Positions 3,641-56,458 of a stretch of DNA of 64,000 nucleotides are shown here, piece by piece. Within the stretch, counting starts at the first letter, position 1, and each line of letters begins with the position of its first letter. The notes under the pieces were generated by a model, which was given only the letters and a program-made list of their open reading frames with translations, was not told where the DNA came from and searched no databases. This stretch comes from Lunularia cruciata (taxonomy: Eukaryota; Streptophyta; Marchantiopsida; Lunulariales; Lunulariaceae): positions 49,924,333 to 49,988,332 of the forward strand of contig OX419756.1 of the NCBI GenBank assembly GCA_948567375.1, read 5' to 3'. The translations under genes were made by a program, and so were the position numbers.

Positions 3641-3815
3641 GGACCAACTGTGGTCTCTGAGATGGAAGTGGTACTACTCACACTGTACCATCCTCCCATA
3701 CACACAAAAGGTGTTTACCTTCCAATCTTAATCATTTGGCTTGCTGAAGGACACAATCTCTCTCCTTGGCGCCAATTGTGCTACCCACAAGACTAGTGCA
3801 AGGATAGTCCATCAC

Positions 3816-11142: not shown

Positions 11143-11493
11143 TTCGTCTCTAGCCCAAATTTATAAGTGGCGTGTCTCCTTCATCTTTCTTCACTTTGAG
11201 TTTCTACCAAGAAATCACACCTCTTGCATGCTCATATCACTGTCAATTGTCCCTCATGCGTATGCCTACCATTTTTTGCCTTGGGTTGAGCACCCTTGAG
11301 ACAAAGTCCCCTTACTTTGGGTTGCATGCTGACAAGGCAATTCCAAGTACCTTGCCTTCTTACACAAAGTCACTTTACCTTGGGTTACACCTCGAGGACA
11401 CCTTTCTTTGCCTCCTTTTGCCATATAGGTGCAATTTGACATTGTCTATACACTTCCTCTTCAAAAATAAGAAAAAAAAAAGTGGGTACCACA

Positions 11494-16431: not shown

Positions 16432-18857
16432 CAAACCGACATACTTGTTGGGTATGTGTAGATGTCAACACCCTCCCTTCCACATAGTTAGACAGGTCTT
16501 CTCTAAGCCAATACTATATACTTTGCTCCTCACACTTTTAAAGGCATATGAACTAAGTCCAAAACCTACTGAAAATGAAGATTCAGCAAGTAGGTTTCAA
16601 CCCATCTCTGTGCCGTACCTTGGAGTAAATTTGACAAGTTTTTTAGGTCTCCACATAAAGCCATACCTCTGTATAAATCCCAGGCCACCAATACAACCCT
16701 CAAATGCACTTGTCAGTACCTTGAACTCCACAATGACCTGCAGCCTTTGCATCATGCGATTCTTGTAGTACTTTCTGCTTCATCTCTTCATCTCCCACCA
16801 CTCTCAATGGAATTCCAGCATGGTTATTGGGCATTTGCTAAAGATACCCGTTCTTCAACAAGAATTTGATGGACTTCCTCCTAACCTTCTCAAACTCTTC
16901 TTTGGTCCATTCTGAATTGTTCTCTAGAGAATTGAGATACTTCCAAACAACAAGAAGATCATTGGTGTATAGTTCTTCTCTAAAGGGTAGATTCAGATCT
17001 TGTTCATGTACATCTACCTTACAGTCATTTCCGGTTTCATCATAGCATGCTCTAGATAGCATATCAACCACTAGATTGTCCTTCCCAGCTATATATCTTA
17101 GCTCTGGATTAAACATCAGAATGAAAGCAATCCAATGCAACATTGCAATATCTGGAGTATCACAATTGGCAACCATCCCTAGCAGTGGCAAACAATCTAT
17201 CTCTAGGATGACATAGGCACTGATCAAGCAATTCCTATCCTGTTTTAATGCTATCTTGGCACCCCAAAACTCCCGCTTGATCTAAGGATACCTTTGTTGC
17301 CGTTCTTTGAAGATTCTTGCTCCAAACCTTGGTGCATATCTACTGCCATTTTCATCTTCTTGGCTCACAACCCATCCAGTAGCATAGGGACTCAAATCCA
17401 CTATAACTATGATTGGCCGCCCACAATTGTAGTCAAGCGGATGAAGCACCAGTGAGTTCTACAATGCTTCCTTTGACTTTGCCATAGCAATGGAATGCTC
17501 CGGCCTCCAGATGAACTTGATTCTCTTCTCAAAAGTTGGTAAAGCAGCTCTGCAACATGAGCAAAATGAGGTGTCCAGATATGATAGAAAACACATGCTT
17601 CCAAGAACCGCCTTACCTTTTGAACCAAGGAACAATCTCTGATCTTCCCTATAATGTCCACCTTCTTTGGATTTGGTTTCCACCCATATGAACCACATAG
17701 ATGTCCTACTACCAGAATTTCTCCAAGTCCAAATGCTGACTTCTCTCCATAAAGAGTCACTCTTGCCTCTATCAACCGCTTCAATATAGCTTCCACATCT
17801 CAAATGTGATCCATGAAAAACCTCCTTCTACCGCCATCCATCAAAGTTTCATCCTTCTCACCCGCTGTGCAACCCCTAATAGGTATATCATCTAGGAACG
17901 GATGGGTCTTTTCAAGAATGAAGGACTGCAAACTACGATTAATAGCACTTTGCATATATGCCACCAAGTTAGTAGCTTCCATCAGAAGAGTGCACATACA
18001 CATCAAGCCTAGCGGTGTCCGCATGGTGGTTATGTCACGGCTTCCTTTAGCAAAATAAAATTGATCATACCCTGAATATAGATCTCCAATAGAGTAAATC
18101 ACCCTCCCTACAAACTCCTCAGCAAAATTATCTACAACCGGTCCTACACCCAAATCTTGAATTGTTACCTTGTTTGGCTATTGCATATCCTGTATGAACC
18201 GCAACTTCACATTCTTCTTTCTGACCATGAACCAGTGATTTAAATATGGTGCTTCTAATGGCTCCAAAATTTTGGCTCTGACCTTCTTCTTCAACAGCTT
18301 TGTTAGTTGGAGCAAAAGCGCCTTTGGCACCGGTATTGGTCATAGATCCCAAGGTACATGAGGAACTATGAAAATGATCATCGGTGTGATTTCCTGTGGG
18401 TTCACACACCCAATCTTCTCAATCTTGAAAGCAAAAGCTTTCCCACATTAACTAATCATCTCTTTAAATGCTTGGCACTCAACCTTTGTGAGCAAACCAT
18501 CCCCTACAATTGTAAGTTCTACCAAGGTCTCCTCAGAAAAGGAATGACCAATATTCTTCACTTACCTCAACCTTGGCTCATCTCTAGTCCTGCATAGCAA
18601 TTTAGATGCATGGCAATGGAGCAGCAATGGGATGAACCTTTTTGTCTACTGTTTTGTACTTGGTATTGCACTCCACTTCATGAACCAATTCTGAAAGTGG
18701 ACCATAAAGCCCCTTCCCTATCTCAATCACAAATTCTCCTTTCTTCATTGCATTGATCACTTCCCAAACTGCTCTACCTTCTCCCAAATCTTCCAAAACT
18801 CCAATGATTGCCTCATTACCATCCATCTCTCTCTCTGTTTTCAGAAGTTGCTCCTTT
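16432..18857 (-). pseudogene. Family D RT, RNase H and integrase N-part fossil
   Basis: Read on minus from 18857. A pre-RT region comes first (VWEVINAMKKGEF), then the RT core (DLYSGYDQF near 18080; catalytic box FLDDIPI near 17890), RT thumb and connection (WKPNPKKVDII), RNase H end (PELRYIAGKDNLVVDMLSR near 17100), then the integrase zinc finger region (HDAKAAGHCG) and the beginning of the integrase core (KYIVLAREDL near 16520). These domains copy and insert element DNA. The RT box FLDDIPI and the integrase motif differ from families A and C, so D is a separate gypsy lineage. Broken; several breaks. Confidence 0.75.
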
Positions 18858-20784
18858 TGTGACAACCCGGAAAATATCACTTTTGCGGTAATCGGGTAAG
18901 TAAAGTTTGTTCCCACAGAGATACAAGTCATAAATGTCCAAATACAAAGTCAAATGTCACAATGTAGTTCTTCTTGGTTGTGTCTTTGATCTCTCAAGTA
19001 GCAACTACACCCAAAAGATAATAACAAACACTGATTCATAGTCTTGTCACAAATTAACACTTTTTAATCACAACTCCATCAAATCTTTCCAAATAATCTT
19101 GATTGTGATGATTCAGGCTTTCCCAAAAATAACACTTCATTGCAAAACAACTTCACCTCAAAATTGTGTTCTACTCCTCCACTGAAGGTACAACTTCCTT
19201 GATCAAAATTGCTTCACATCAACATTGCGTTACACTCACAAATGTAGAATACTACTAACACTATAATTCCTCTCAGATCTGTCAAGGCATTGCTCCGATT
19301 GCACTTCACTTAGGATCAAACACATAGAATGAAGATCAAGGCTGAAAAATCTAACATCCAGCAAACATACTGACTTGCACTTTGAAATTCTCCAAACACT
19401 CACAAACACACACAAAGTTGACACTCAAAATCAAGCTCAAACAACGAGCAGTGCTTCACAAGACATTGCTTTATCTATTCTCAAAAATAATGAGCACTAA
19501 ACAACATTTTCTTGCAAATGACACTCTTAAATAGTGAAGCAAACAACAGTTTTAACAACTATACCGTTTCCTAACAACTCTTCCTACTTGTAGATCCAAA
19601 ATGATAAACCATCTCTTCATATCTACCTCTTCATATCTACCTCTTCAAATCTCAAATTTGTTACAACTCCAATCTAATGTCTACTTCTTCCTCGGCTTCC
19701 AATCTCGAAGTAACTTCACTTACTACTCTGTCCTCGAGTTTCACAACTACTAAATCCTCTACCATTTCTAACAGTTCTTCATTCTAATTTACAATTCCTA
19801 CCATAGTTAATCCTTCTAAATCTGTACCTCCCAACTCACTCTTCTCTAAAGTGTCAAATCTCAAATCCAAAGACACTTGCACTCCTATATCTCTTACTTT
19901 GGGTCTAACTATGATCATTTGCTTTACTAATTCTACTATGTCATCATCAAGAATTGTAATTGAAAGCATGGGTACACTATTTATGCCTTCAATTTGCAAC
20001 CCACTTTCCCTTAATCACTCATGTAACTGACCCAAAGACACTTACTATCTGATCCTGCACTTCGGGCTCATTCTCTACTGCTATTTCTCTTCTAATTCTA
20101 TCCTATCTTCAATCAGAACTGAAATTGAAGTCATGGGTATCCTAAATATCTTCTTTCCTTACTCTAACTTCCTTTAACGCCTCTGGCAAGATTCCCAAAG
20201 TCACCTTCACTGCACTTTGAGGTCCGACTACCTTGGGTTGAATCATATTTGTCTTGAGGCAAAGTCCTTAGACTCAAAGTCATGTAAACCAAAGTCCAAA
20301 GTCCAAAGTCCAAAATCCAAAGTCTGAAGTCCCGAAGACACCAACCCGAAGACACTAAACTACTTTGTACATCTACTCCCAAAACTTCAAATGCTTGTTA
20401 CTTTTGCTACAGACCTCCAAACTCTACAATTTTGGATGCAACGGAAAGCCCTGAACAAGATGCTTCCAATGAAATATAGCATGAATGATTTGGACTTTTC
20501 TTCAATGAGATACAGCCCCCGCAGTAATCCTGACCTGTAACCTCCATTTCGATGCAAAGAAACCCTTCTTCAGCGTTTGGTCTGAGTTTTTTCCTCCTCT
20601 AACACGAAGTAAGCTTCTTTGGGTCTGATCAAATCCAAGTCCTTCTTCCTCCAATACAAAGTCAACTTCCTCAAGCCTGATCAAAACACAACTTTCCTTT
20701 CATTTCTTCTCCATTTGGTTTCAATTTGGTTTCAGCAAGGCACTTCTTTAAAACTCATCCAAAATGCAAAACGTGGGTACAACA
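18858..20784 (-). repeat. Short variant family C solo LTR inside family D
   Basis: The minus-strand LTR ends match family C (TGTGACAACCCGG on plus at 18858; start TGTTGTACCCACG on minus at 20784). They are flanked by CCTTT (18853-18857) and CCTTC (20785-20789), a probable target duplication with one difference. The R/U5 part, the TATA region (about 19526-19533) and the tail of the LTR gene (about 19690-20000) align with other copies. The remaining 5' part, about 20040-20784, does not resemble other family C LTRs. It is either a distinct subfamily or a rearranged copy of 1.93 kb. Broken. Confidence 0.75.
20289..20326. repeat. Heptamer tandem repeat
   Basis: About five to six copies of a 7-bp unit (CCAAAGT, slightly varied) within the unusual 5' part of the short family C LTR. 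Similar AAAGT words are scattered in the U3 of other family C LTRs, so the array may have grown from them by slippage (inference). Confidence 0.8.
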
Positions 20785-21028
20785 CCTTCCTTCTCATCTT
20801 TTTCTGCAAAAATCTTTGATGTGTTCTCTACATGCACAAAGCAAACAGTCCTATCTCTCTAGATTCCAACATAGAACCTATCAAAACAATCCTATTCACT
20901 GATTTTTATGTGGTGGAATGCTACGTATAGCACCTTGTTCTTCCACCTTCCCTGCCAAGGCGCCTAGTGGGAACCCCACCTTCCAGTAGGCTCTTCCAGA
21001 TCTCTTAACTCTCTCCTGTTCTTATCGC
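20785..21028 (-). pseudogene. Family D protease-RT spacer remnant
   Basis: A 244-bp island of family D between two family C insertions. Read on minus it keeps a short open stretch (YWKVGFPLGALAG) that continues the frame region before RT. Its borders are the target duplications of the two insertions, which is the main evidence for its identity. Confidence 0.55.
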
Positions 21029-21447
21029 TATGGTATCCACATAATTTTATTTTTCTTATTTATGGAGAAGAAGTGTACATAAAAAGTCGTATTGTGCCTA
21101 TCTGGCATTAGAAGGCAAAGAATGGTGTCTTTGGGTTGAAACCCAAGGTAAAGTGACTTTGTGTCAGAAGACAAAGTACTTGGATTTGCCCTATCACCCT
21201 GCAACCCAAAGTAAGGAGACTTCATCTCGAAGGTAATCAACCCAAGGCGAGGACAATGTAACAACTTTCCTTTGGGGTTGGACATTCAAGAAGGTATCGT
21301 GCACAAAAATGACTGACCTATGTATAGGAGGAAATTGATACTAACAAGAGCATGAAGAAGGTGTAATTTCTTGGTAGAAATTTGAAGTGAAGAGAGATGG
21401 AGGAAGTGCCCAACTATAAAAGTTGGGCTAGAGACAAAGCAATGACA

Positions 21448-23977
21448 AGTAATTTTCTATCGCCGTAAAGAAGTCATCTTGGGGGAGATTGTAGGAAGGG
21501 AATTGTAGTCGAAGACGCATAGGTGTATAGAGAGGAAGTCAAGACAGTTAGTCCGGGAAATAGTAAGAAGAGTAGCCTCCAACCCAAAGTGGATGAGAGA
21601 AAGATGGGAGGTGGGAAGAAGAACTCTGAATTCACAGTGAGAAATCCTGCAATTTGGAGGTTAGATGTGATCACGAGAATCAAAGTCTTGAGCAGGCTTT
21701 GGATCACATTCTTGGCATGGAATTGGAACATTAGCTTTCTAGGTTTCATGACTGAGATCATCAAGAGTAAGTGTCTTGATGGCCCTAAGGGAGAAGGGAA
21801 GAGAGGAAATCTGGCTCAATGGATAGAGTCGGATTGGAGGTTAGTACTTGGAAGAGAGGCGGGTGATGAGCAGGGATCCACGTTCTTGGGGAAGGGAGAA
21901 GTAGTTGAAGAAACCCAAGAGGTGAGAGATGCCTTCTCTTCAAAATGCACAAAGAATGGCTACAAGGTTGAGAGCTATAAGGACCCAATGAAGAGAGGCA
22001 TTGTGACAACAATGATGGTTATCTTGAAGCCGGAGCAAACCACTTATGTGATGAAACATCAAGCGGTATTCTTCCACAAGATGTTTGCAGGTCAATTGGG
22101 TAAAGTGTTTTCATTAGTGTGAGAGATAAATGGTGTGGAACATGTAAGACAAGTCACCTCCACACTACATTGTGCCGTTTGCAGCCCACTTCTATTTGGG
22201 ACTAAACTTGCTAAACACGGCGGAGAGACACAAGATGGTGTTGCATTTCTACCCTGATTTGAGAAGAGATGCTGATGCGGAGGAGCAATGATGAGTACTA
22301 CGCATAGACAGAGCAGAGTGTGCAGTTGAAGGTGAACACTCCAAAGTTGAAGAAGAGGAGTCGACAAGGCAAAGAAGAAGAAGCGGCAACAAGACCTTGA
22401 AAGACAAGGAAAGTAAACCTGGTGGTAATCGTGTCATCGGAAGAGGAGTCAGAAGGAGAGGCCGAGTGCAAGGAAGAAGACTTGGACAAGGGAGAAGAGC
22501 CCAAATTCACATTTCAGAGTGGGGAAACAAGCAACAAGAGTGAAGATGGAGGGGAGATGCAATTGGTACCCAAGGAGGACAAAGGAAAGATGGAAATAGA
22601 AGAAGAATGTAACCTACACATAGAAGAAGAAGTTCCAGGGCAGGAGGAGAAGAGGGTGACCATTCAACAAGGAGTTCACTCCAAAAGGAAGGCAAAGTAT
22701 GAAGCAAGACCAAGTAAGGTAAGAGAAGTGGAGAATGGAAGTTGGGGAGCAAAGAATCCATTCCCATAAGGCGATTGTGGCTAAGAAGGCGAGTATTGAG
22801 TGAAGAAGAGGCAAAAAAGGAGAAAAGTTTGCAAGTCAAGGTAAACCTAAGTGGAGGAGTAGAGTATTTGCGAGAGGTTGTGTGCATGTTGTTAGTAAAG
22901 TTGGAGCACAAGAAGAAGGAAATGCAGTTGATGTGTCCGGAGGTTAAGACTGTGTTGTAGGTGTTAGCATGCTTAGAAGAAGAGAACTCGGAGGTGAAGA
23001 AGAGTATAATTTGGGGTGAGGAGGAGAAGGAAGTACTATGAGTAGATGCAATAGTACAAAATCAAGTAATTGAAAACTTGAAGAGAGAAGTGGGGAGTAG
23101 AGAAAGAATCATAGAGCAAAATGTCATAGCAAGGGAAAGGCGTATAGCGGAGTATGAAATCTTGAAACAATAGTTTGCTGATTCTTGATTAGAGATTGTT
23201 CATGCTATGGCAAGAGTAGCAAAGAAGGAGCTTGATAAAGTGATGAAGAATGTAGAAGAAAAGAGGCAGCTTTGGTAAAGAGAGTTGACAACTAGGTATA
23301 GAGAAGAAGAAAGACTAAGAGAGTTACTCCGTAATCTAGAGGAGAAGATTGTGCAAAAGGAGAAGGAAAAGGAGATAGTGAAAGCCGAGTTCAAGGCAAA
23401 ACTGGCAATGTATAGGGAAGATTGGCTTGCAGATCAAGAATGCGAGAGAAAAGTGAGACTTGAGCCATTGAAGGAGATTGTAACAAAGATGAATGCGATG
23501 CTGAGTACAAAAGCCAGTGTCCGAATCAAAGAAATACGATTGCATAAGTTGAAGTTGTTAGTGCAAGAGACGAGGAGGAGAAACACAAAGGATAAAGACT
23601 TGAATGCCTTGTTGATTAGTCTCCAAACTTGTGTAGATATGAAGATATTAGAAGTGGAAGATAATATCACGATTAGATTAGACTTGGTAAAATTGGAGAT
23701 AGATAAACTTCGGAAGGATGTAAGAGCGAGACCTAGAGTAGATGACATAGGAGTGCAAATATCTTTGGAATTACCAGTTCAGATATTAGAGAAGAGTGGG
23801 TCAGGAGATAGAGATTTTGGAAGGTTGCTTGTGATGAGAATTGTAGATCAAGAAGGAGAAAAGTTAGAATTGATGGAAGAATTAGTAGTTGTGAAACCCA
23901 AGGATACATTAGTATGTGAGGTTACTTTGAGATTCGGATTGGAAGCCCAGGAAGAGGTAAACATTGGGTTGGAGTAG
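21448..23977 (+). pseudogene. LTR-borne coiled-coil protein fossil, 5' LTR copy
   Basis: Reading-frame remains of about 840 codons in U3. The N-terminal domain of about 270 residues has motifs NFLS near the start, KMGGGKKNSEF, AIWRLDVI, FLAWNWN, SDWRLVLGREAG and YVMKHQAVFFHKMF. A glutamate- and aspartate-rich middle spans about 22430-22700. A heptad-rich coiled coil spans about 22740-23900 (EERLRELLRNLEEKIVQKEK, DLVKLEIDKLRKDV), with a short acidic C-terminus. No zinc finger, protease, signal peptide or membrane span is visible. It lies between the LTR start and the LTR TATA box, so it is not driven by the mapped TATA box of its own LTR. Broken; several breaks. Not a protein I recognise. Confidence 0.75.
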
Positions 23978-24096
23978 TAACAATTTTGAGATTTGAAGAG
24001 GCAGATATGAAGAGGCGCATTGTCATTTTAGATCTAGAGGTAGGAAGAGTTGTTAGGAAATGGTATAGTTGTTAGATAACTACTAAAGTGCTTCAT

Positions 24097-24104
24097 TATT
24101 TAAA
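24097..24104 (+). promoter_or_regulatory. TATA box of family C LTR
   Basis: TATTTAAA within a well-conserved block (CTTCA-TATTTAAA-GGTGGCATT), followed by about 670 bp to the LTR end. The same block is found in the other copies near 8075, 19530, 31970 and 37530. Its conservation and its distance from the primer site suit the promoter of the genomic transcript; the start site itself is not visible. Confidence 0.6.
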
Positions 24105-24776
24105 GGTGGCATTCGTAGTCATATGTTGTTCAGTGCTCATAATTTTGAGAATAGATAAAGCAAAGTGCTATGAAGCAATGCTTGTTGTTTGAGCTTAATT
24201 ACGAGTATTAATTTTTTGTCTATGTTTGTGAGTGTTAGAAGAATTTTGAAGTGCAAATCATTGTGTTTGTTGGATGTTGGATTCCGCAACCTTGATCTTC
24301 ATTTTGTGTGTTTGATCCTGACTTAAGTGCAATCGGAGCAATGCCTTGGTAGATCTGAGAGGAATTGTAGTGTTGGTAATATTTTGCATTTGTGAGTGCA
24401 GTGTAGAGTTGATATGAAGCAATTTTGATCAAGGAAGTCGTGCCTTCAGTGGAGGGGTGGAACACAATTCTGGAGCAAAGTTGTTTTGCAATGAAGTGCC
24501 ACTTTTGGGAGGGCCTGAATCATCACAATCAAGATTGTTTGGAAAGATTTGATGGAGGTGTGATTATGTGTGACAAATTGTTGTGACAAGACTACGAGTC
24601 AGTGCTTGTTACTCTCTTCTGGGTATAGTTGCTACCAAAGAGATTAAAGATGAAATCAAGAAGGACTACATTGTAACATTTGACATTGTATTTGACCAAT
24701 TCTGAATAGTATCTCTGTGTGAACAAACTTTACTTACCTGATTACCGCAAAAGTGATATTTGCCAGGTTGTCACAT

Positions 24777-24795
24777 GATTTTTGGCACTGCTGTT
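24777..24795 (+). other. Primer-binding site of family C (tRNA-Asp-like)
   Basis: Right after the LTR end, the stretch TTTGGCACTGCTGTTGGG aligns with the complement of a plant tRNA-Asp 3' end (TGGCGCCGTTGCCGGGGA). All the differences I see are transitions. tRNA-Asp-type primer sites are known in Tat/Athila elements, which agrees with the RT type. It marks where minus-strand DNA synthesis would begin. Confidence 0.65.
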
Positions 24796-25354
24796 GGGAA
24801 TTCAAATCTTGGAAGTGGAAGAATACAAAGCCAAGATTGAATTTGGGTGTTAAAGCAATATGAATGTCTGGATTGAGAGAACAATGGGAAGAGAGAGTTT
24901 GAAGATGAATGTTGCATTGTGAAGAAGAAGAACGCTTGAAGATCCAATCTACTTTTGATGAAACCAAATGAGAGGCGTTGGACTTTCAACTTCTTCACAA
25001 AGTGCAAGAAGCCTTGCAAGAACTTGACAAAAAGAATCACAAAGGCAATTGGCAAGGCTACTTTGCATCTCCATCTTCCAAGAAGAAGAAAGACTCAAGA
25101 AGGCAAACATATTTGTTAGAACCCAATACACCAACTTCCCTAAAGCTATAAAGGAAGTCGCATTTCTAAAGAACTTTGTTTGAGAAAAGACAGCATAAAC
25201 ACTAACAGAAGAAGAGTGTCAACACCTTCTACGCACGATTCCTTGATTGTCTTGAAGGAATTTTGAAGAACACTTTGAAGGTGTTGAACCTGATTCTTCC
25301 ACTTGGGTTGAAGTCAACACACTCAGAGAAGAAATTTTTGAGGAAGACCCTATT
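24796..25354 (+). other. Family C leader, no coding signal seen
   Basis: About 560 bp between primer site and gag, with many short oligopurine stretches (gaagaag). I see no conserved open frame or known motif. Leaders of this kind carry packaging signals in related elements, but none can be pointed to here. Confidence 0.5.
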
Positions 25355-26745
25355 GTGAACTTGACTTATTGGAACCCATGGGCTGTCAACACGGCATTGA
25401 TACCAACTAGCTCCTCAGTTTTGTCAAGTTCAAACTTACCACATCCAATTCCACCAAGTCAAATGATGACTTCATTACTTGTCACCCGACATGCCTATCA
25501 AAAGTACAAGGGGATAGAACAAGACAAAGATCCCGATGAGTTCATCAAAGAATTTGAGGTCATATCCTTTGCCAACAAGGAACATGACTTGGCGGATCAA
25601 CTGAGGATTTTCCCAAGTTTGCTCCAAAAGAAAGCTCGGAGCCGGTACACCCATGTAACCCCAAAGGGGTTCATACCAGCGGACTGGGCGGACTTGAGAA
25701 ACAATTTCCTGGAATGCTTTTAGGAAGTTGACTACGACATGAGTGTCTTTGCGGCGCTCAAAAATTTGGATAGAGGCAAGAAGGGGAAGTTGAGAGACTA
25801 CTTTGAGCGGTTCATGACACTTTTGAACCAAGTCCCAACGCAATCGGGTGTGGTGGGTTACTCCAATGCCCAAGCCATTACCTGGTTCCTAGGAGGATTT
25901 TCACCAGAGATTTGGATCTTTGCCAAGAAGAAGAATGTAACTTCCCTGGACAAGGTACTCAAACACGTTGTCTGCTATGGGGGAGCTCACTCTCACTCTG
26001 CCAGCATTCAAAGAAACTAAGAGAAGAAGGCAAGAAGCCCAAAAGGAGAGCTTCTCACAATACATTCCCTTCTTTGGAGGAATTCTCCACATCTTTGAGT
26101 TCTTTTTTGGAATCCAAAGAAGAATTAAAGCCAAGAAGAATATGAAGACGTGGAGGCAAGAAACCATTGACACCCCAAGCAAAGAGTGTACATAAGGTAG
26201 ATACCAAGCTGGATGCCCTTATAAAGGAGTTTTTGGATTTTTAGATCCAGATGATTGGAGCAAAGGACCAAAGGAAGCCTCCATCATTTTGCAGATCCAA
26301 TGTATGGTGCACCGTGTGTGGCAAGTCAGGCCATGCAAATATGGAATGCAATACTCATAATGCATTTCCAGTGCAGCAGATTGATTGGGTTCCGGGATGG
26401 AACCAGAAAGAGGAAGAGGAGGCATTGTACCAAACCCAAGGGGTACCACCTCAGGCAAGCACATCGTTCCAAGGTCCGAGGTATGGACCAAGGGAGTATA
26501 ACCCCAATGCTCCCCCATGAAGACCACCGATGAGCAACCAAAATTGACCTCAGAATGTTGCACCCGGAGCATGCTACAATTGTGGCTTGATGGAACATTG
26601 GTCTCCAAACTATCTGGAGCCAAGACGGAAAATTGGGTATGTTCCCCTATATGGAAATTGCAAAGGATCGGGTCATATGGGCAACCAATGCCCTCATCCA
26701 CCAAACCCAAAGCCGCCTATAAAATATGTATAGACCCCAGCTGAG
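25355..26745 (+). pseudogene. Family C gag fossil with zinc knuckles
   Basis: The N-terminal part is a retrotransposon gag core of the plant type (DPDEFIKEFE, ARSRYTHVTP, WADLRNNFLECF), which forms the particle. The C-terminal part has a clear CCHC knuckle (CTVCGKSGHANMEC near 26315) and two further knuckle-like stretches (CYNCGLMEHW and GNCKGSGHMGNQC near 26575-26690) followed by a proline-rich end. Three knuckles in series is more than the usual one or two. Broken; a few breaks. Confidence 0.8.
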
Positions 26746-27060
26746 CGTGCTATGCTTTAGGCAAAGAGTGACACCAATGTAAATTATATAACACTTGAGG
26801 AGGAGAGACCTCAAGAAGGGTGCCCGGCCTCTAAAGAAGAATGGCTGGACCTCAAAATTTTGAAGGTTGAGACACACGCAAGTAAGAAGAAGCGTGATCT
26901 CAAAGAATTGAGTACGACCTCTTAGTCCTCACAAAAGGTGAAGAGGCTGCGCCCAAAGTCAATCCTTTCTGCCGAGGAGGAAAAGATTTTTGCAAAAGCC
27001 AGAGCTAAAGCCTTGCAGAAAGAGCTCAAGGAAGCGGTACTCAACACTTAGGAACTGAGT

Positions 27061-28116
27061 TTGGAGGAGGAGACAAAGACAAAGCCTCTAGTTTTTCTGG
27101 CAGACATCCAATCCAAAGTAAAGGATCTGATCCAAGCCAAGGTGTGCCAACCCAAGGAACCTCGGGTCAAGACCACTAGTACACCCATCACTATCATGAA
27201 GCGTCTCAAAGTCAAATTTGAACATGGAGAGACTTCAAACCCAAAGTTGAAGGCAAAGATGGTGAAATTAGGGGAAGTACCTCAATATGATATTGTAGCA
27301 GATTTGGCATCCACAACTGCAAATGTCACATTCAAGCAACTATGGAAGATAATAAGCTATACAAGAGGCATCAAAATTCAGCCCTCAAGAAAGTAAGGGT
27401 GATGTCTAAGAAAGACCTGCCCACCATTTATCATATTGAACAAGAGGATCTAGGATCTCCTGAGGTTGATGCAGAGATTGCAAGGTGTATGCATGATCAC
27501 ATTGTTACACATTGATTTGGGTTCAGGTGTGAATGCCATGACCAAAGATACTACAAATTGGCTGGGGTGTCATATGTTTGAGCCAACACCCCGAGTCTTG
27601 ACATTTGCAGACCAAACCAAGAGACGGCAATTGGGCATGCTATCAAACATTACTACAATCATTGGAGGGGTGCCCTTCAAATTGAATTATATTGTGTTGC
27701 GACCAGTGACCAAAACTGGTTACCCATTATTGATTGGAAGACCTTGGTTGTACACTACCCAAGTTGTGGTGGATAAGTACCAACAGAAGCTGCAGTTCAA
27801 GGACATTTTGTCCGAAGACCAGAAGCTGGTGATTGTGAATTGGACAAAGGTTCCCCATCTTGGGGAAACAAGTTTGTCAGAAGACGAGGATGGATCTAAA
27901 GACACATCGTCTTTGTCCTTAGAAGACTTTGAAGACAAAGTCCAAGTCAATTACTTGGAATGTTACGAGGTGGATGCAAAAGACAAAGACCCATATGACC
28001 TTGCCTCAGGTGAACATGACTTAGAGGGAGGAGGTTTGATGGTAGCTCAACTGAGATTAAGCCAAGTCATGTCAAAGGAGTCATCAACCCCGATGATTGT
28101 CAAGATGTTGTCTTGA
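27061..28116 (+). pseudogene. Family C protease region fossil
   Basis: Gag-protease linker rich in lysine and glutamate (27061-27400), then a retropepsin-like aspartic protease. It shows the active-site stretch HIDLGSGVNAM near 27505 and the downstream flap and helix YPLLIGRPWLY near 27725. An acidic linker leads to RT. The protease matures the polyprotein. Broken; a few breaks. Confidence 0.75.
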
Positions 28117-28289
28117 CTGAAGGAGATTTTTTGAATACAATCACTTGGCAGGATACACAGCACTATTCATAGAATTCTAGGATGTATTTGCCTGGTCTAT
28201 TGATCAAATGCCAGGTATTCCACAAGAATTTGGAGACACCGGATTGATTTGGTTGAAGGCGCAATTCTGGTTTTGCAGAGATAATACTG

Positions 28290-29545
28290 CTTGAACCCAA
28301 AGCACTCGCTTTTGGTGAAAGATGAAATTGACAAGTACTTGGGGGACGGAATAATCTTTCTTGTCTTAAGTAGTGAATGGGTTTCACCCATTGTCATTGC
28401 GTCTAAGAAGAAAACGGGAAAGATCCAAGTGTGCCAAGATTTTTGCAAGTTAAATGTAGTCACAAGGAAGGATCATCATCCCTTGCCTTTTACCAATACA
28501 ATTTTGGACCAAGTAGTTGGTCACGCTTGTTACAATTTTCTCGATGGATTTTCAAGGTACAATCAAGTATCCATCCAAGAAGAAGACAAGGACAAAACCA
28601 CATCCACTACCAATTGGGGCACTTTTGCTTACAATCAAATACCCTTTGGGTTGTGTAATGCTCCCGCTACTTTCCAGCGGATGATGAATTCAATCTTCAA
28701 GGATTTCCTATGCAAATTTGTGTAAGTCTTCATTGATGATTTTTGTGTGTTTGGGCAAAGAGATGAACATTTGGATTACCTTTGCCAAACTTTTGAAAGG
28801 TGTCGTTTTTCCGGTCTATCATTACACCTGGAGAAATGTTTCTTTGCAATGAAGGAGGGAATTCTTCTGGGGCATTGGATGTCAAGCAAGGTTTTGAAGT
28901 TGATGCCAAGAAGGTTAAAGTAATCTCAGCTTTGGAATCTCTAAAGAACATTTGGGAGCTAAGAGCCTTCTTGGGACATGTCGGATACTATAGACGATTT
29001 GTTTCAAACTACATGGTGCTTGTTGCATCCCTTATAAAGCTTTTGAAGATATCCAAAGACTACCTATGGGAAGCAAGTCAAGAAGAAGCTTTCCAGGTAT
29101 TGAAGAAGAAACTGGTTGAAGCACCAATTATGAGAGCCCCAACTTGGGATGCCCCTTTTCATGTATATGTGGATACTTCATCTATGGCAATTGGAGTAGT
29201 CTTAAGTCAAAAAGACAACAAGAAGAAGGATTACCCATCTATTACGCCAGCCAAAAACTTTTAGTTTCAGAAAAGAACTATTCGATGATTGAAAGAGAAG
29301 CACTTGGAATGGTGTATGCATGCAAGAAATTTTGCCACTACCTGCTAGGATACGAGTTTGTCTTCTATGTTGACCATTACGCATTGCAACATTTGGTCAA
29401 GAAGGCAGATTTGTCCAAGCAAATTGCAAGATGGATCTTGTTGTTACAAGAATTCACATATACTGTACAAGTATGGAAAGGAGCTTCACATTTGAATGCG
29501 GACTTCCTGTCCAAGTTGGAAACTCAAGACCAGGAATGGGAGATT
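28290..29545 (+). pseudogene. Family C reverse transcriptase and RNase H fossil
   Basis: The RT fingers (WVSPIVIASKKKTGKIQ), palm (YNFLDGFSRYNQVSI, GTFAYNQIPFGLCNAPATFQ) and catalytic box FIDDF lie between about 28370 and 28750. The thumb (RAFLGHVGYYRRFV) and RNase H (AIGVVLSQKD, NYSMIEREALGMVYACKKF, HYALQHLVKKADL, LNADFLSKLE) follow to about 29545. The palm wording is typical of Tat/Athila-type plant gypsy elements. Broken; several breaks. Confidence 0.8.
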
Positions 29546-29779
29546 GACGATCGGTTCCATGATGAAGAGTTATATCAATTGATAGCAATGCAAAGTATGA
29601 GGTATGCAGCCAAATATCATTATCTACATACTCTTCAATGTCCTAAAGGGCTGGACCCGGGAGCAGAGGGCAGTCTTTCTCAAGAAAATGGGGCTGTATT
29701 AGCTGAAACACAACATTTTATTCAAGATGGGCAAAGACAAAGTACTTTGGTGATGCTTGGAGTCATATGAAGTCGGAGG

Positions 29780-30620
29780 CGTAGTTGAGTCTTTACACTC
29801 CATAGCATCGGGAGAACACTATGCCTTGAAGAATACTATAAAGATTCTTTCCTCGGGGGACTGGTGGCTTATGATGTACAAAGACACGCATGCCTATATC
29901 CAAAGTTGTGACGCTTGTTAGAGAACGGGAAAGCCGACGGCTACTTCCTAATGACCTTTGAGACCAATGTTACCATTGGTCCCATTTGAGAAATGGGGAA
30001 TTGATTTTGTGGGACCAATACAACCCGTAACCCGAGTAACAAGAAAATGCTACATTTTGGTTTGCACTAATTATGCTACCAAGATGGTCAAAGCTAAAGC
30101 AACTCGCAAAGATGATGCAAAAATAGTGGCGGAATTTTTCTTTTGAAATTTCATCTCTCGATACGGATGTCCTTTGGAATTGGTCAGTGATAGAGGGACA
30201 CATTTCTTGAATTTTGTGATGGAGGCATTAACCAAATACTTTTATATTAAACATCTGAAGACGACTCCTTATAATCCAAAAGCAAATGGCTTAACAGGAA
30301 AGATGAATGGGTTACTCTGCAAAATTCTGAATAAGGTGACTGTCAATTATGCTTATGATTGGGATACAAAATTACCAGCCATGTTGTGGGCATATCGAAT
30401 GACAAAAAAGATCACAACCAAGAAAACTCCATACTTCTTGACATACGGCTTGCACCCCATACTACTAGTTGAATTTGAAGTACCAACATATCGGATTCTT
30501 TGTGAGGAACAATTGTCAGAAGAAGAAAGTCAGGATCTTCAAATCCATCAATTGATGTGGTTAGAAGAGAAAAGAGACGATGCAATGCAAACCACAAAAG
30601 AAGTACAAGAATAGAGGAGA
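29780..30620 (+). pseudogene. Family C integrase fossil
   Basis: The end of the zinc-binding domain (SCDAC near 29915) is followed by the DDE core: FEKWGIDFVGPI near 29990, a strand rich in NYATKMVKAKA, ELVSDRGTHF near 30180, and the C-terminal helix region TTPYNPKANGLTGKMN (near 30265). The C-terminal part has LTYGLHP and runs to about 30620. It inserts element DNA into the host genome. No chromodomain is visible. Broken; a few breaks. Confidence 0.8.
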
Positions 30621-30903
30621 GTCAGGCACGATAAGCACATCAAGCCTGTGATTGTTTGCAAAGGAGATTTGGTTTTGTTATGCGATAATCGCCAAATATT
30701 TTTTTGAGGCAAACTGCATTTGAGATGGATGAGGCTCTATTGAGTCCTTCATCTTTACGACAATGGGTCCATTCAACTTGCAGACTTGGAAGTACAACCA
30801 TTTGCCACTCGAGTAAATGGGTGGAGAGTTTGGAGATATTGGACCATAGACTCGAAGGTCTCCAAGACACCCAAGGTCTATGTTCACGGGGACACTCACA
30901 TTT
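30621..30903 (+). other. Family C integrase-PPT linker
   Basis: About 280 bp between the integrase tail and the polypurine tract. It carries the end of the pol frame (a motif like HIKPVIVCKGDLVLLCDN, near 30640) and then non-coding sequence. No separate gene is visible here. Confidence 0.5.
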
Positions 30904-30914
30904 GAGGGAGGGGG
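30904..30914 (+). other. Polypurine tract of family C
   Basis: GAGGGAGGGGG lies 2 bp before the 3' LTR start at 30917. This is the expected plus-strand primer. It fixes the LTR border and shows that the coiled-coil gene downstream is inside the LTR and not internal to the element. Confidence 0.8.
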
Positions 30915-31965
30915 TATTTGGTACCCACATTTTTTTTATTCTTATTTATGGAGAAGAAGTGTAAAGAAGAAGTCATATTGTGCCTATATGGCATTAGAAG
31001 GCAAAGAATGGTGTCTTCAGGTTGAAACCTGAGGTAAAGTGACTTCGTGTCAAAAGACAAAGTACTCGGATTTGCCTTGTCCACCTGTAACCTGAAGTAA
31101 GGAGACTTTGTCTTGCAGTTGCTCAACCCAAGGTGAGAATAGTGTAACAACTTTCCTTCGGGGTTGGACATTCAAGAAGGTACTATGCACAAAAACAGCT
31201 GGCCTATGAACAAGAGGAAATTGATAGTGACAGGAGCATGAAGAAGGTGTGATTTCATAGTATAAATTTGAAGTGAAGAGAGACAGAGGAAGCACATTGT
31301 GACAACCCGGAAAATATCACTTTTGCAGTAATTGGGTAAGTAAAGTTCGTTCCCGCAGAGATACGAGTCAGAATTGGTCAAATACGAAGCAAAGTAACAA
31401 TTTCAATTCTTCTTGAGTTCTTCTTTAGTCTCTCAAGTAGAAACCACACCCAAAAGAGAGTAACAAGCACTGACTCGCAGTCTTGTCACAACTTAACACT
31501 CCATAATCACAACTCCATCAAATCTTTCCAAATAATCTTGATTGTGATGATTCAGGCTCTCCCAAAAACGGCACTTCACTGCAAAACGACTTCGCCTCAG
31601 AATTGTGTTCCACCCCTCCACTGAAGGCACAACTTCCTTGATCAAAATTGCTTCACATCAACTTCACATTGTACTCCCAAATGCAAAATACTACCAACAC
31701 TACAATTCCTCTCAGATCTGCCAAGGCATTGCTTCGATTGCACTTCACTCAGGATCAAACACACAAAATGAAGATCAAGGCTATAGATCCAACATCCAAC
31801 AAGCACTCTGACTTGCACTTCGAATTTCTCCAAACATTCACAAACACAATTGTGAAATTGATACTCGGAATCAAGCTCAAGCGACGAGCACTGCTTCACA
31901 ACACTTTGCTTTATCTATTCTCAGAAACAATGAGCATTGAACAACAATTTCCTGCGAATGCCACT

Positions 31966-31973
31966 CTTAAATA
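31966..31973 (-). promoter_or_regulatory. TATA box of nested family C LTR
   Basis: TATTTAAG on the minus strand inside the conserved block also seen at 24097. About 670 bp of R plus U5 follow to the LTR end at 31298. It lies downstream of the LTR gene on the same strand. Confidence 0.55.
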
Positions 31974-32089
31974 GTGAAGCAATCGACAGTTCTAACAACT
32001 ATACCGTTCTACAACAACTATTCTAACCTGCAGATCCAAAATGACAATGCACCTCTTCATATCTGCCCCTTCAAATCTCAAATCGGTTT

Positions 32090-34680
32090 CTACTCCGATC
32101 CAATGTCTACTTCTTCCTCGGCTTTCAAACCTGAACCCGAAGTAATCTTACTTCCTACTACATTTTCCTCGGGTTTCATATCTCCTACTTCTTCGACCAG
32201 ATCTAGCAATTCTCTTTCCTGATCTGAAATTGCACTAGTGTGTAGTCTATCTAACTCTTCATCTTTCGACCCACTCTTCTCTAATGTCTCTGAGGGCAAC
32301 TCCGAAGACATTTGGATTCCTATGTTATCTACTTTGGGTTTTGCCTTAACATCCTGCTGAAGCTCTTCTAGCTCTATTCTCACTAAGTCTAATCTAATTG
32401 AGATGTTATCCTCTACCTCTAAAATCTTTCTGTCTACACGAGTTCTGAGACTAATTAACAGGGCATTCAAATCATTATCTTTCGCTTGTCTTTGCCTCGT
32501 CTCCTGCACCAACAACTTCAACTCGTGCAGTCGCACTTCTTCAATTCGAACGTTGGCTTCTGTACTTAACACTACGTTTACTCTGAGGACTATTTCCTTC
32601 AATGGCTCCAATCTTGTCTTTCGTTCTCGTTCCTGATCTGCAAGCCATTCCTCTCTGTACATTGCCAACTCTTCTTCAAACTTGGCCTTCACCGCTTCCT
32701 TCTCTTTCTCCTTCTGTACGATTTTCTCTTCCTGATTACAAAGTAATTCTTGTAATCTCTCTTCTTCTCTATACCCCACAGACAACTCTCTTTGCCAGAG
32801 TTGCTTCTTCTCCTCCATACTCTCCATCACTCGATTGAGCTCTTGATCCTTTGATGCTACCCTCACCATAGCATGGATAAGCTCTACTCTTGAATCAGCA
32901 AACTGCTGCTTCAAGATTTTGAATTTAGCTACTTGTCTCTCCCTTGCAATGTCACTCTTCCTCGCAAGATCCTCTTGATAACTCACTTCTCTCTTTAGGT
33001 CTTTGATTACCTGACTTCTCTCTACTGCTTCTGCTCGTAGTACTTCTCTCTCCTCCTCACCTTGGGTTACACGCTTCTTCAACTACGAGTTCTCTTCTTC
33101 TAATCTTGATAAGACCTGCAAAACAGTCTTTACCTCTGGACAAGTAGACTGCATCTCCTTCTTCTTATGTTCCAACTTCACCAACAGCGGGCACACTACT
33201 TCTTGCAGGTAATCTACTCCATTACGGGCAACTTCTTCCTCCCGCGGAGTGGTCTCTCTTCTTTCTTCGTGTTCTCCCGATACTCGCCTTCTTCTCTGGA
33301 GTCTTCATATCGGAATTGATGCCTCACTGCCCGAGCTTTCTTCTACCTCTTCCTTCACTCTACTTAGCCCCGCTTCACACTTTGCCTTACGTCTCAAGCA
33401 AACTCCTCGCTGTACTGCAATCTTCTTCTCCTCGAGCACCGGTACTACGTCTTCTAGCGCCGCATTGTCTTTGGCTTCTACTTTGGCTTGCACTTCTTCT
33501 TTGTATTCTTCAGCCGCTGGTGCCGAGGTCATTTCTCCACCGTCTTCATTGTCACTGCTAGTATCTCCACTCTGCAGTGGTAGCTCAGGTTCCTCCTCAC
33601 GTTCCGAGTCCTCCGTCTTGAGCTTGGCTTCGCCTTCTGAGTCTTCATCTTCTGACTCAATCACCACCATTCCTTGCCTCGGGTTATTTTTTTGCATCTT
33701 CCAAGGTTTCTTGTTTTCTTTGGCTTCTACTTGCCGAGTTCTCTTCTTTGTTGGGGTACTTACAATGACCTCCACGTTTTTCCCTGTCTTCGCGTAGTAG
33801 TCGTCCGTGCTCCGGATTTGGAGAATATATTGCTGCTCCTCCGTGTCGACTTCTCTTCTCAAGTCAAGATGGGAATGAGACACCATTCTATTGCGCTCCG
33901 CCAAATTGAGCAAATTCAACCCGAGGTAGAAATGTGCTGCAAATGGTACAATGTAGTGGAGAGGCAACTTGTCCCGCAGATTCCACACCATCTGCCTTGT
34001 TCTCCCGTGAAAACACCTTGCCCAGTTGATCGGTTCTCATGCAAATAACTTGTGAAAGAACACCGCTTGGTGTTTCATCACATAAGTGGTTCTCTCCGAC
34101 TTCAGGATGGCCATTAGTGCACTCACAATTCCTCTCCTCATAGGGTCTTTGTAGCTTTCCACTTTGTACCCATTCTTCGTTCTCTTCGACAAGAAGGCAT
34201 CTCTCACCTCTTGTGTTTCTTGGGCTATCTCTCCTTTCCCCAAGAACATGGCTCCCTGCTCCGAACCCGCCTCCTTCCCGAGTACGAGTCTCCAATCCGA
34301 CTCTGTCCAGCGAGCCGGATTTCCTCTCTTCCCTTCTTCCTCGGGACCATCAAGACATTTACTCTCGATGATTTCTGTCATGAATCCTGGAAAACTTACG
34401 TTCCAGTTCCATGCCAGAAAAGTGATCCAAAGTCGGCTCAAGACTTCGATCCTCGCTACTACATCTAATCTCCAAATTGCATGATTTCTCACTGCAAATT
34501 CGGAGTTCTTCTTCCCTCCTCCCATCTCTTTGGCTTTCTTACTGTCTCTCAATTTCTCTCTTGCAACTTCTCCCTTGCGCACTAACACAAGTCCAACTCT
34601 ATTTCCCTTTCCCCGATCACTTGAAAGACGACTCCTCAACAGCGAAGGAAAATTGCTTGACATTTTGTTGTTGCAGTTTC
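32090..34680 (-). pseudogene. LTR-borne coiled-coil protein fossil, best-preserved copy
   Basis: Read on minus from about 34680 (MSSNFPSLLRSRL) to a stop at 32090. The N-terminal domain (about 34680-33850) has MGGGKKNSEFAVRNHAIW, FLAWNWNVSFPGFM, ESDWRLVLGKEAG, YVMKHQAVFFHKLF and HYIVPFAAHFYLGLNLL. The acidic middle (about 33720-33480) is rich in E, D and S. The coiled coil covers about 330 residues (about 33080-32100) with heptads such as KKQLWQRELSVGYREEERLQ and QEEKIVQKEKEKEAVKAKF. The C-terminus is short and acidic. No hydrophobic span suggests an envelope protein. Family unknown to me; a structural or regulatory role is only a guess. Broken; few breaks. Confidence 0.75.
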
Positions 34681-35111
34681 GATTTTTATAGAGTTTCACT
34701 TCTTTGTCTTCCGTCACTTCGAGTTTCTATTGAGAAATCACACCTCCGGCATGCACCTGTCACTGTCAATCAACCTTCGTGCGTATGAGCCGCTAGTTTT
34801 GAAACGGCCCCTTCTTGAATTTCTTGCCCCGATGAAAGGTTGTTATACTGTCTTTGCCTTGGGTTGAGCTCCCCCCGATCCAAAGACAAGTTACTTCGTA
34901 TTGTATGCTGACACAGCATTTCCGAGTACTTCGCCTTATGACCCAAAGTCACTTTACTTCGGGTTTCATCCCAAAGACAATTTTCTTCGCCTTCTTTGGC
35001 CATACTGGCGCAATCCGACTTCTTTATACACTTCTTCTCCTTTATTTTGAAAAAAAACAAAAAATGTGGGCACCACACATGCTACTATAAAGTCAGGCTA
35101 GAGATGAAGTG

Positions 35112-37410
35112 ATGACAAGAAATTTTCCATCGCCATTAAGAAGTCATCTTGTGGGAGATCGTGGGAAGGGAAGTGTAGTCAAAGATGCATTGGTGTGTAG
35201 AGAGGAAGTCAGGACAGTTAGTCCGAGAATTAGTAGGAAGAGTAGCCCCCAACGTAGAGTGGAAGAAAGAAAGATGGGAGGTGGGAAGAAGAACTCTGAA
35301 TTTGTAGTGAGACATCATGCAATTTGGTGGTTAGATGTGATCATGAGAATCAAAGTCTTGAGCAGGCCTCAGATCACATTCTTGGCATGGAATTGGAACA
35401 TTAGCTTTCCAGGTTTCATGAATGAGATCATCATAGTAAGTGTCTCGATGGCTCCAAGGGAGAAGGGAAGAGAGGAAATCCAACTTGATGGACAGAGTCG
35501 GATTGGAGGTTAGTACTCAAAAGAGAGGCGGGTGATGAGCAAGGATCCACGTTCATGGGGAAGCGAGAAGTAGTTGAAGAAACCCAAGAGGTGAGAGATG
35601 CCTTCTCTTCAAAACGCACAAAGAATAGCTACAAGGTCAAGAGCTATAAGGACCCAATGAAGAGAGGCATCATGGCAACAATGATTGTTAACTTGAAACC
35701 GGAGCAAACCACTTATATGATGAAACATCAAGTAGTATTCTTCCACAAGATGTTTGCAGGAGAGCCAATCAATTGGGCAAAGTGTTTTCATCAGCGTGCA
35801 AGACAGATGGTGTGGAACTTGCAAGACAAGTCACGTCCACATTACATTGTGGCATTTATAGCCCACTTCTATTTGGGACTGAACTTGTTGAACGTGGCGG
35901 AGAGACACAAGATGGTGTTGCACTTCCACCCTGATTTGAGAAGAGATGCTAATGCGGAGGAGCAGCATTACATCTTGCAGAAAAGGAGCAATGATGAGTA
36001 CTACGCATAGATGGGAGAGAGTGTGCAGTTGAAGGTGAACACTCTGAAGTTGAAGAAGAGGAGTTGACAAGGCAATGAAGAAGAAGCGGTGACAAGACCT
36101 TGGAAGACAAGGAAAGTAAACCCAAGGAGAGACTTGGTGGTAATCGCAGTGAAGTGGGACCAAGTAAGGTAATAGAAGTGGAGAATGGAAGTTTGGGGAG
36201 CAAAGAATCCATTCCCATAAGGCAATTGTGGCTGAGAAGGCGAGTATTGAGTGAAGAAGAGGCAAAGGAGGAGAAAAGTCCACAAGTTGAGGTAAACCCA
36301 AGTGGAGGAGTAGAGTATTTGTGGGAGGTTGGGTGCCCGTTGTTAGTAAAGTTGGAGCACAAGAAGAAGGAAATGCAGCCAATGTGTCCGAAGGTGAAGA
36401 CTATGTTGCAAGTGTTAGCACACTTAGAAGAAGAGAACTTGGAGTTGAAGAAGAGTATAATTTGGGGTGAGGAGGAGAAGCAAGTACTATGAGTAGATGC
36501 AGTAGTAAAAAATCAAGTAATTGAAAACTTGAAGAGAGAAGTGGGGAGTAGAGAGAGAATCATAGAGCAGAATGTCAAACCAAGGGAAAGGCAAATAGAA
36601 GAGTATGAAATCTTGAAACAACAGTTTGTTGATTCTTGATTAGAGATTATTCATGTTATGGCAAGAGTAGTAGAGAAGGAGCAAGAGCTTGATAGAGTGA
36701 TAAAGAGTGTAGAAGAAAAGAAGCAGCTTTGGCAAAGAGAGTTGATAGAGACGTATAGAGTAGAAGAAACATTGAGAGAGTTACTCCGTAATCTAGAGGA
36801 GAAGATTGTGCAAAAGGAGAAGGGAAAGGAGACAATGAAAGCCAAGTTTAAGGCTGAACTTGCAATGTATAGGGAAGATTGGCTTGCAGATCAAGAACTG
36901 GAGAGAAGAATGAGACTTAAGCCATTGAAGGAGATTGTATAAAAGCCAGTGTTTGGACCAAAGAAACGTGATTGCACAAGTTGAAGTTGTTGGTGCAAGC
37001 AATGAGGAGGAGAAATGCAAAGGATAAAGACTTGAATGCCTTATCGATTAGTCTCCAAACTTGTGTAGATATGAAGATATTAGAAGTGGAAGATAATATC
37101 ATGATTTGATAAGACTTGGTAAAATTGGAGATAGATAAACTTTGGAAGGATGTAAGAGCAAAATCTGAAGTAGATGACATAGGAGTACAAATATCTTTGG
37201 AACTACCAGTGGAGATATTAGAGAAGAGTGGGTCAGGAGATAAAGATTTAGGAAGGTTACATGTGATGGGAATTGTAGATCAAGAAGGAGAAAAGTTAGA
37301 ATTGGTAGAAGAATCAATAGTTGTGAAACCCAAGGATATAGTAGTATGTGAGGTTACTTCAGGATCAGGATTGGATGCCAAGGAAGAGGTAGAAATTGGA
37401 TTGGAGTAGT
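35112..37410 (+). pseudogene. LTR-borne coiled-coil protein fossil, 3' LTR copy
   Basis: Same gene as in the 5' LTR: a start motif near 35112 (MTRNFPSPLRSHL), N-terminal domain, a shortened acidic middle near 36000-36150, then the coiled coil (about 36170-37300; KKQLWQRELIETYR) and a C-terminus ending in an acidic tail near 37410. In this position it follows gag-pol and the polypurine tract on the genomic strand. Broken; more decayed than the nested copy. Confidence 0.72.
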
Positions 37411-38179
37411 AGAAGTTTTGAGATTTGAAGAGGCAAATAGGAAGAGCTGCATTGTCATTTTGGATCTACAAGTAGGAAGAGTTGTAAGGAAACAATACAG
37501 TTGTTAGATAACTACTGAAGTGCTTCACTATTTTAAGGTGGCATTTGTAGTCATTTGTTGTTTAGTGCTCATAATTCTGAGAATAGATAAAGCAAAGTGT
37601 TGTGAAGCAATTCTTGTTGTTTGAGCTTAATTCCAAGTATCAATTTTTTGTCTATGTTTGTGAGTGTTGGGAGAATTTCAAAGTGCAAATCATTGTGTTT
37701 GTTGGATGATGGATTCTGTAGCCTTGATCTTCATTCTGTGTGTTTGATCTTGAGTGAAGTGCAATTGGATCAATGCCTTGACAGATCTGAGAGGAATTGT
37801 AGTGTTGGTAGTATTCTGCATTTGTGAGTGCAATGCAAAGTTGATGTGAAGCAATTTTGATCAAGAAAGTTGTGCCTTCAATGGAGGGGTGGAACACAAT
37901 TCTAAGGCAAAGTCATTTGTAGTAAAGTGCCATTTTTGGGAGGGTTTGAATCATCACAATCAAGTTTGTTTGGAAATATTTGATGGAGTTGTGATTATGT
38001 GTGACAAATTATTGTGACAAGATTGCAAGTCAATGCTTGTTACTCTCTTCTTGGTGTAGTTGCTACCTGAGAGATTAAAGACAAAATCAAGAAGGACTAC
38101 ATTGTGATATTTGACTTTGTATTTGACCAATTTTGACTTACCTGATTATTGCAAAAGTGATATTTGTTGGGTTGCCATA

Positions 38180-49265: not shown

Positions 49266-49311
49266 AGACCTTCACTTTGAAGACAAAGTGAAATCTTAGT
49301 CCGAGGGTAAA

Positions 49312-49993: not shown

Positions 49994-50139
49994 GTGCAGT
50001 CTTACTATCTAGCTATTGTTGGAGGACAATTGATGTTATGCATAACCTTAACTTTTTGGAAATGACAATCTTTGTCAACATATTAGTAGAGTTTTTGGCA
50101 TCTTGAATCTTTTCAAGGGACAAACTGCCATCTTCAAGT

Positions 50140-55027: not shown

Positions 55028-55169
55028 GGACAAAGTCCAATGACCATCACTTGGAGTCTCTTAGCTAGAGTAGGTGTGGCTTGATTTTAATCAATGTTTG
55101 ATTGTTGGCAGAGTTTTGAGTGCGAGATCAAGTTTAGATCCAATTTGAGTGTGACTCAAGTGGAAGAGT

Positions 55170-56383: not shown

Positions 56384-56458
56384 ATGTATGACTTATGTGT
56401 GAGTTTTGTTTCTATAGTTTATGATGTTGAAAAAATATATATACACGTTGTGAGCCGG

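Follow-up and report, generated by a model that had tools for sequence, protein, structure and literature searches.

A probable accessory gene within the long terminal repeats of a Ty3/gypsy retrotransposon family from the liverwort Lunularia cruciata

Gene positions in described retroelements

Accessory genes borne by a long terminal repeat (LTR) are known from a few animal retroviruses: sag of mouse mammary tumour virus (MMTV) and nef of the human and simian immunodeficiency viruses (HIV/SIV) lie in U3, follow pol on the genomic RNA and are duplicated in both proviral LTRs, nef overlapping U3 only partly, and MMTV and HIV/SIV are vertebrate retroviruses with env. We describe here a retrotransposon of the liverwort Lunularia cruciata whose LTRs contain a large gene of their own; it occupies positions 21029-38179 of a 64,000-nucleotide stretch of DNA (the window; contig OX419756.1 of assembly GCA_948567375.1, positions 49,924,333 to 49,988,332, forward strand). 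By gene position, MMTV sag and HIV/SIV nef are the closest analogues of this gene; a sequence relation was neither expected nor looked for. From the anatomy of the element and its relatives, and from purifying selection on the gene, we consider it very probable that they form a non-chromoviral Ty3/gypsy family with an accessory gene of ~857 codons in U3, an arrangement that, as far as we found, is apparently new in plants. The earlier note on this DNA knew of no such plant family, and none turned up among the matches listed from the open-licence literature, as judged by titles and the openings of abstracts.

In plants, extra open reading frames (ORFs) are described as internal, for the most part 3' of pol and ahead of the 3' LTR (PMC7264820, in the part available to us), and a survey of 80 species sorts them as upstream or downstream of gag-pol, the accessible part of that survey being silent on a location in the LTR (PMC6317226). 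The gene found here resembles such extra ORFs (conserved, at least 250 codons, outside gag-pol) in its 857 amino acids under selection, and departs from the internal position given for them in the same part of PMC7264820, because it lies within the LTRs. The Athila/Calypso/Diaspora elements (OTA group) share with our family the order of gag-pol, long LTRs (2.5 kb in Diaspora, whose gag-pol has 1892 codons, according to the excerpt of PMC1142308) and perhaps a tRNA-Asp-like site a few bases past the LTR, and no chromodomain was detected here; their env-like ORF, where present, instead follows pol in the internal region (PMC7264820, same part), and the excerpt of PMC1142308 does not mention a gene in the LTR. 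The Tat lineage (Grande gene23, RIRE2 and Retand) likewise has an extra gene 3' of pol (PMC7264820, same part), but its extra ORFs are internal and antisense, whereas here the gene is sense and inside the LTR, the additional RNase H (aRH) of the Tat lineage was not found, and Transposase_28 gave no match. Retrosat2, RIRE3 and RIRE8 of rice resemble the family in combining LTRs of ~3 kb or more with an extra ORF (PMC3485330, in part). For L. cruciata itself, a 580-Mb assembly and bursts of Ty3/Gypsy elements have been reported (PMC9985172, likewise in part).

Anatomy of the window element and its relatives

The 5' LTR of the window element (21029-24775, plus strand, 3.75 kb; delimited by self-alignment, copy alignment and boundary reading) starts with TATGG, ends with GTTGTCACA and holds a decayed copy of the gene. 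From first ATG to stop the gene remains run from 21442 to 23977 on the plus strand (~845 codons with stops and frameshifts, traced by alignment coordinates, codon-position pattern and open pieces), with a conserved second Met (MGGGKK) at 21604. A TATA-like box (TATTTAA, 24097-24103, plus strand) lies 3' of the gene and is a candidate start signal for the genomic RNA, which would place the gene in U3. Seven nucleotides past the LTR end stands a primer binding site (24783-24800, plus strand), which is mutated in this element; it reads TGGCGCCGCTGCCGGGGA in three of seven other elements and differs by one base in the other four. The site is putatively tRNA-Asp-like, in line with the use of a tRNA-Asp primer in the Calypso/Diaspora group, as described in the excerpt of PMC1142308.

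The internal region (24776-30914, plus strand) is a decayed gag-pol with Pfam matches to reverse transcriptase (RT) and RNase H and a weak one to integrase (E 0.045); in its relatives, gag, CCHC, a weak protease, RT, RNase H and integrase were matched. It ends in a polypurine tract (PPT; 30904-30914, plus strand, by boundary reading) that overlaps a TGA at 30903-30905, the counterpart of the pol stop. The 3' LTR follows on the plus strand in two pieces, 30917-31297 (self-alignment, copy alignment and boundary reading) and 35078-38179 (self-alignment and copy alignment), the second with gene remains at 35112-37409. Between them is nested a whole solo LTR of the same family in antisense orientation (31298-35077, minus strand, by self-alignment and boundary reading). 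Its flanks, CACAT/CATGC, are alike in 2 of 5 bases as they stand, and its insertion site reads CACGC in two uninterrupted copies (7420-11493 and 14983-16436). The gene in the nested LTR (32090-34663, minus strand, by alignment coordinates) is the best kept in the window: a single in-frame stop (34037-34039) interrupts it, and the frame shifts once, between 33305 and 33082. The flanks of the whole element, ATCGC/ATTGC, agree in four of five bases.

The borders proposed in the earlier note thus hold within a few bases (LTR end 24775, primer site from 24783, PPT 30904-30914, flanks ATCGC/ATTGC), its figure of about 840 codons per LTR agrees with the ~845 of the 5' LTR gene at 21442-23977, and the placement it gave the gene, inside U3, past gag-pol and ahead of the LTR TATA box, is seen in the window and in independent copies. 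Copies were sought in the genome, of 566 Mb. Eight same-strand LTR pairs ~8 to 10 kb apart were chosen by spacing among 121 scored matches to a C-terminal piece of the gene, and seven of them showed the architecture of LTR, internal region and LTR, the remaining pair being two solo LTRs. The same borders recur in these copies: the primer-site junction in 7/7 elements, the PPT junction in 5/7 (the PPT stretch is absent from L013/L014 and L017/L018), both junctions intact in five, and perfect 5-bp target duplications in five. L015/L016, which stands in a longer LTR array, and L017/L018, whose 3' half lacks the PPT and LTR start and whose 5' LTR was matched only partly, are counted among the seven and stand outside the five with perfect duplications. 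Divergence within the LTR pairs of the fetched elements (Kimura two-parameter distance) is 0.027-0.060. In the L015/L016 array one LTR has a PPT ahead and a primer site behind, as might result from recombination between the LTRs of adjacent elements.

The pol stop ends 11 nt ahead of the LTR in all seven junctions read (L012, L016, L022, L023, L025, L029 and L030), so that the gene lies wholly in U3 and in sense orientation. A TATA-like box was found at LTR position 3077-3124, ~115 nt past the gene stop, in 10 of 12 other LTRs and was not found in L013 and L029. With a query of 1401 bases, running from the end of pol across the PPT and the beginning of the LTR as far as the gene, 40 of 8029 candidates were scored; among 42 rows, 40 (one being the query itself) match in full or lack no more than the first two bases, and the other two are short extra matches near one of the 40. 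This query contains the gene and thus counts the existence of such junctions, not their rate. The family is abundant and large in this liverwort genome; first-look candidates for the LTR and gene queries numbered 8,128, 19,121 and 21,128, mostly unscored and so not copy counts. Paired LTRs with TG..CA ends, a primer site, a PPT and target duplication in the window element and seven others are features of the Ty3/gypsy superfamily, and Pfam matches follow the order gag, protease, RT, RNase H and integrase in pieces of L015, L016, L018, L021 and L022, protease being weak. A chromodomain gave no match in L016:1347-2549 or L022:1479-2579, where divergent chromodomains may escape, and on these sequence matches we assign the family to non-chromoviral Ty3/gypsy.

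Nine LTRs were classed as solo. Five of them (L019, L020, L027, L028 and L039) bear the gene and have perfect duplications, L049 and the window LTR at 7420-11493 match in four of five bases, L032 in one and the nested LTR in two. A solo LTR keeps the whole gene, and LTR recombination would therefore not remove it. The window copy at 7420-11493 (minus strand, flanks CGGAT/CGGAC, gene remains 8198-11139) is a complete solo LTR that reaches 4.07 kb because of an internal 410-bp tandem duplication; this duplication (10017-10834, 99% identical) lies inside its gene and is far younger than the LTR. A partial LTR with the 5' part and gene start occupies 14983-16436 (minus strand, by self-alignment and copy alignment).

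Coding signal, selection and predicted protein

For estimates of dN/dS we aligned five LTR copies from four insertions, with the two pieces of the split LTR kept apart, so that pairs are not independent. Each of the nine pairs that combine copies of different insertions had a dN/dS of 0.16-0.26 when read in the gene frame, against 0.62-1.07 for the same pairs when read in the two shifted frames. Synonymous divergence of these nine pairs ranged from 0.5 to 1.4, several exceeding one substitution per synonymous site. Between the two LTRs of the window element itself, differences are flat over the three codon positions (67/68/61; formal ratio 0.61), as expected after insertion. Comparison of the nested LTR with the 5' LTR gave near-flat values ahead of the ATG (0.33/0.34/0.33) and past the gene stop (0.16/0.16/0.16), and within the gene 0.13/0.10/0.31 in the N-terminal part (codons 44-208), 0.24/0.29/0.52 in the middle part and 0.28/0.18/0.39 in the C-terminal part. 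The corresponding values between the window element and L015/L016 are 0.11/0.09/0.26 for pol and 0.12/0.13/0.32 for gag, and the N-terminal part of the gene is constrained as strongly as pol. An unbroken frame of 857 aa was read in the LTR L029 (L027-L030 were chosen for long frames), and in 11 of 150 scored genome matches, L029, the one read, among them, the matched stretch is free of stops and the frame stays open for 862-878 aa. These substitution patterns indicate that the LTR gene is a protein gene that was under purifying selection, with a signal beyond chance.

The predicted 857-aa protein has a basic N-terminal part, two stretches resembling bipartite nuclear localization signals and an acidic middle, with strong 3.5-residue (heptad) periodicity confined to residues 441-560. 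It looks soluble, as a simple Kyte-Doolittle scan found no membrane-like segment (hydropathy maximum 1.32 over 19 residues). Searches of a large protein database, which depend on shared five-residue words, yielded no homologue at the set limits either for the middle piece (977 candidates) or for the whole protein (7986 scored candidates); the pol control in the same search had 4539 matches among 7987, the best named being Riccia sorocarpa (69%) and Calypogeia fissa (53%), with many others unnamed. These pol matches, together with a single radial-spoke gene (matched in 0 of 14 control genomes, which are uninformative about plants), fit a land plant with motile sperm, most probably a liverwort. 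Pfam had nothing near its cut-off for the protein (lowest E 0.012, from a single one of 18 members), and comparison of sequence against profile gave no match to the plant mobile domain, Transposase_28, ATHILA ORF-1 or Transposase_32, leaving a suspected resemblance to Transposase_32 unsupported. A profile search of the PDB with the N-terminal part returned 0 matches, and a structure model of the N-terminal 352 residues (mean predicted local distance difference test, pLDDT, 38.9) was of too low a quality to serve in a fold search.

Ahead of the gene, 25 of 30 LTRs have a TATAAA aligned at the same column, and in 16 of the 30 it lies 27 nt before the first ATG; an own promoter of the LTR gene is plausible on this motif.

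Alternative explanations and a possible mechanism

Several observations weigh against the reading of a selected accessory gene in U3. The queries behind the LTR pairs and junctions contain the gene, a choice that cannot reveal gene-free elements. In a less biased sample of 20 LTRs, taken by similarity to the U5 end, all three gene pieces were inside the LTR in eight (L032, L037-L041, L046 and L049), and L044 has a diverged gene version (39% identity over the compared stretch) in a 5' LTR adjoining the primer site; in five others (L031, L035, L036, L045 and L048) the gene is only partial, L035 being so scored as its N-terminal gene piece sits beyond the LTR end, and six (L033, L034, L042, L043, L047 and L050) belong to a class of ~1.9 kb in which the gene is reduced to its 3' end. 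The short-class and partial copies mean that LTRs lacking the full gene can have been mobile. Within the gene, the middle and C-terminal parts are less constrained than pol, and codons 1-43 are weakly constrained, so that translation may in truth begin at the second conserved Met. One non-coding control, the leader before gag, is uneven (0.27/0.19/0.16, ~150 sites each). TATAAA falls outside all five runs (at least 9 columns, 90% conserved) of the pre-gene stretch, so that its conservation is not exceptional, and it lies so near the first ATG that a transcript started there would be nearly leaderless. Promoter use and the protein itself are predictions from sequence, and a nuclear accessory function, which we regard as possible at best, is argued from composition.

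This older, short class, to which L034 belongs in truncated form, is also present in the window at 18858-20800 (minus strand, upper end approximate), where only the 3' end of the gene survives. Its copies have U5 and both LTR ends in common with the long family and retain fragments of the C-terminal unit of the gene, in some cases repeated; other copies are 78-84% identical to L043, and those read showed no long frame and no codon phase. We considered the short class as a gene-free ancestor; it retains the 3' end of the gene without codon phase, and an old, decayed deletion derivative appears likelier, ancestry being unproved. L050 was considered as an ancestral element with an internal gene, and its flanks identify a short solo LTR, with the duplication AACTC, that interrupts an older copy bearing the gene. 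The earlier note asked whether all family LTRs, paired and solo, include the gene: paired and solo LTRs with the gene were found, and 6 of the 20 U5-sampled LTRs are of the short class and five are partial. The arrangement that it had named as fatal, most members having short LTRs with the gene internal to them, was checked in part: short LTRs make up those 6 of 20, and an internal gene was found in none of the loci read, which include no complete short-LTR element.

The gene could have been a passenger, a host gene or part of another transposon inserted once into an LTR and hitch-hiking without function, as the want of any homologue or Pfam domain and the movement of short-LTR relatives without the full gene might suggest. 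We regard this as unlikely, since a passenger would drift, whereas copies separated by more than one substitution per synonymous site in several pairs show purifying selection, with an N-terminal part like pol, and a diverged version has been retained beside the primer site in the 5' LTR of L044. Even less probable is a role in cis alone, for instance of a long structured U3 acting as RNA or DNA with an incidental open frame; some LTR stretches ahead of the gene are indeed conserved between copies, but the codon-position pattern is limited to one frame and one interval, and 11 of 150 scored copies share open frames of 862-878 aa. That the gene is a usual internal one between pol and a short 3' LTR, its LTR borders having been misplaced, would accord with the position of most plant extra ORFs (PMC7264820, in the part available) and with the presence of a short-LTR class in this genome, and is already contradicted and scarcely credible, since within one and the same element the gene precedes the primer site, in the 5' LTR, and also follows the PPT, in the 3' LTR, pol ends at the PPT, and of nine solo LTRs, five that have perfect duplications, and two more at 4/5, contain the gene.

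Under the preferred reading of an accessory gene in U3, genomic RNA would start past the gene in the 5' LTR and run through gag-pol to the 3' LTR, thus holding a single copy of the gene, at the RNA's 3' end, and the transfer of U3 in reverse transcription would copy it to both ends of a new insertion. A separate message for the gene might start at the TATAAA just ahead of it or arise by splicing. The protein would most likely be nuclear, an accessory factor for its own family's expression, export, integration or escape from silencing; we put this role forward tentatively, and our best guess for it follows the analogy with the extra protein of Grande, whose nuclear location is given in the part of PMC7264820 available. 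It is also conceivable, although we would not favour it, that the gene is LTR-resident in the manner of nef or sag with a promoter of its own, each solo LTR then being a self-contained cassette that supplies a trans-acting nuclear factor long after full elements are gone. We rate this possibility lower because TATAAA is not unusually conserved; if it were true, the cassette gene might aid escape from silencing and could have favoured the amplification of the family in this liverwort.

It is customary to regard LTRs as non-coding control sequence and to see in solo LTRs no more than dead footprints. In this family a selected gene sits in the LTR and stays behind after recombination to a solo LTR, which affects the annotation and counting of such elements. 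The family also offers a case from plants in which to ask why some retroviruses have their accessory genes in U3.

Two further repeats were observed in the window. One, of ~620-700 bp, is present in five copies (2950-3646, 5078-5768, 49311-49994, 54398-55029 and 56449-57141) that are 86-91% identical and lie in both orientations. The other, of ~1.9 kb, is an inverted repeat with 85% identity between 1-1893 and 44259-46130, within which the open frames at 44758-45821 look gag-like by eye.

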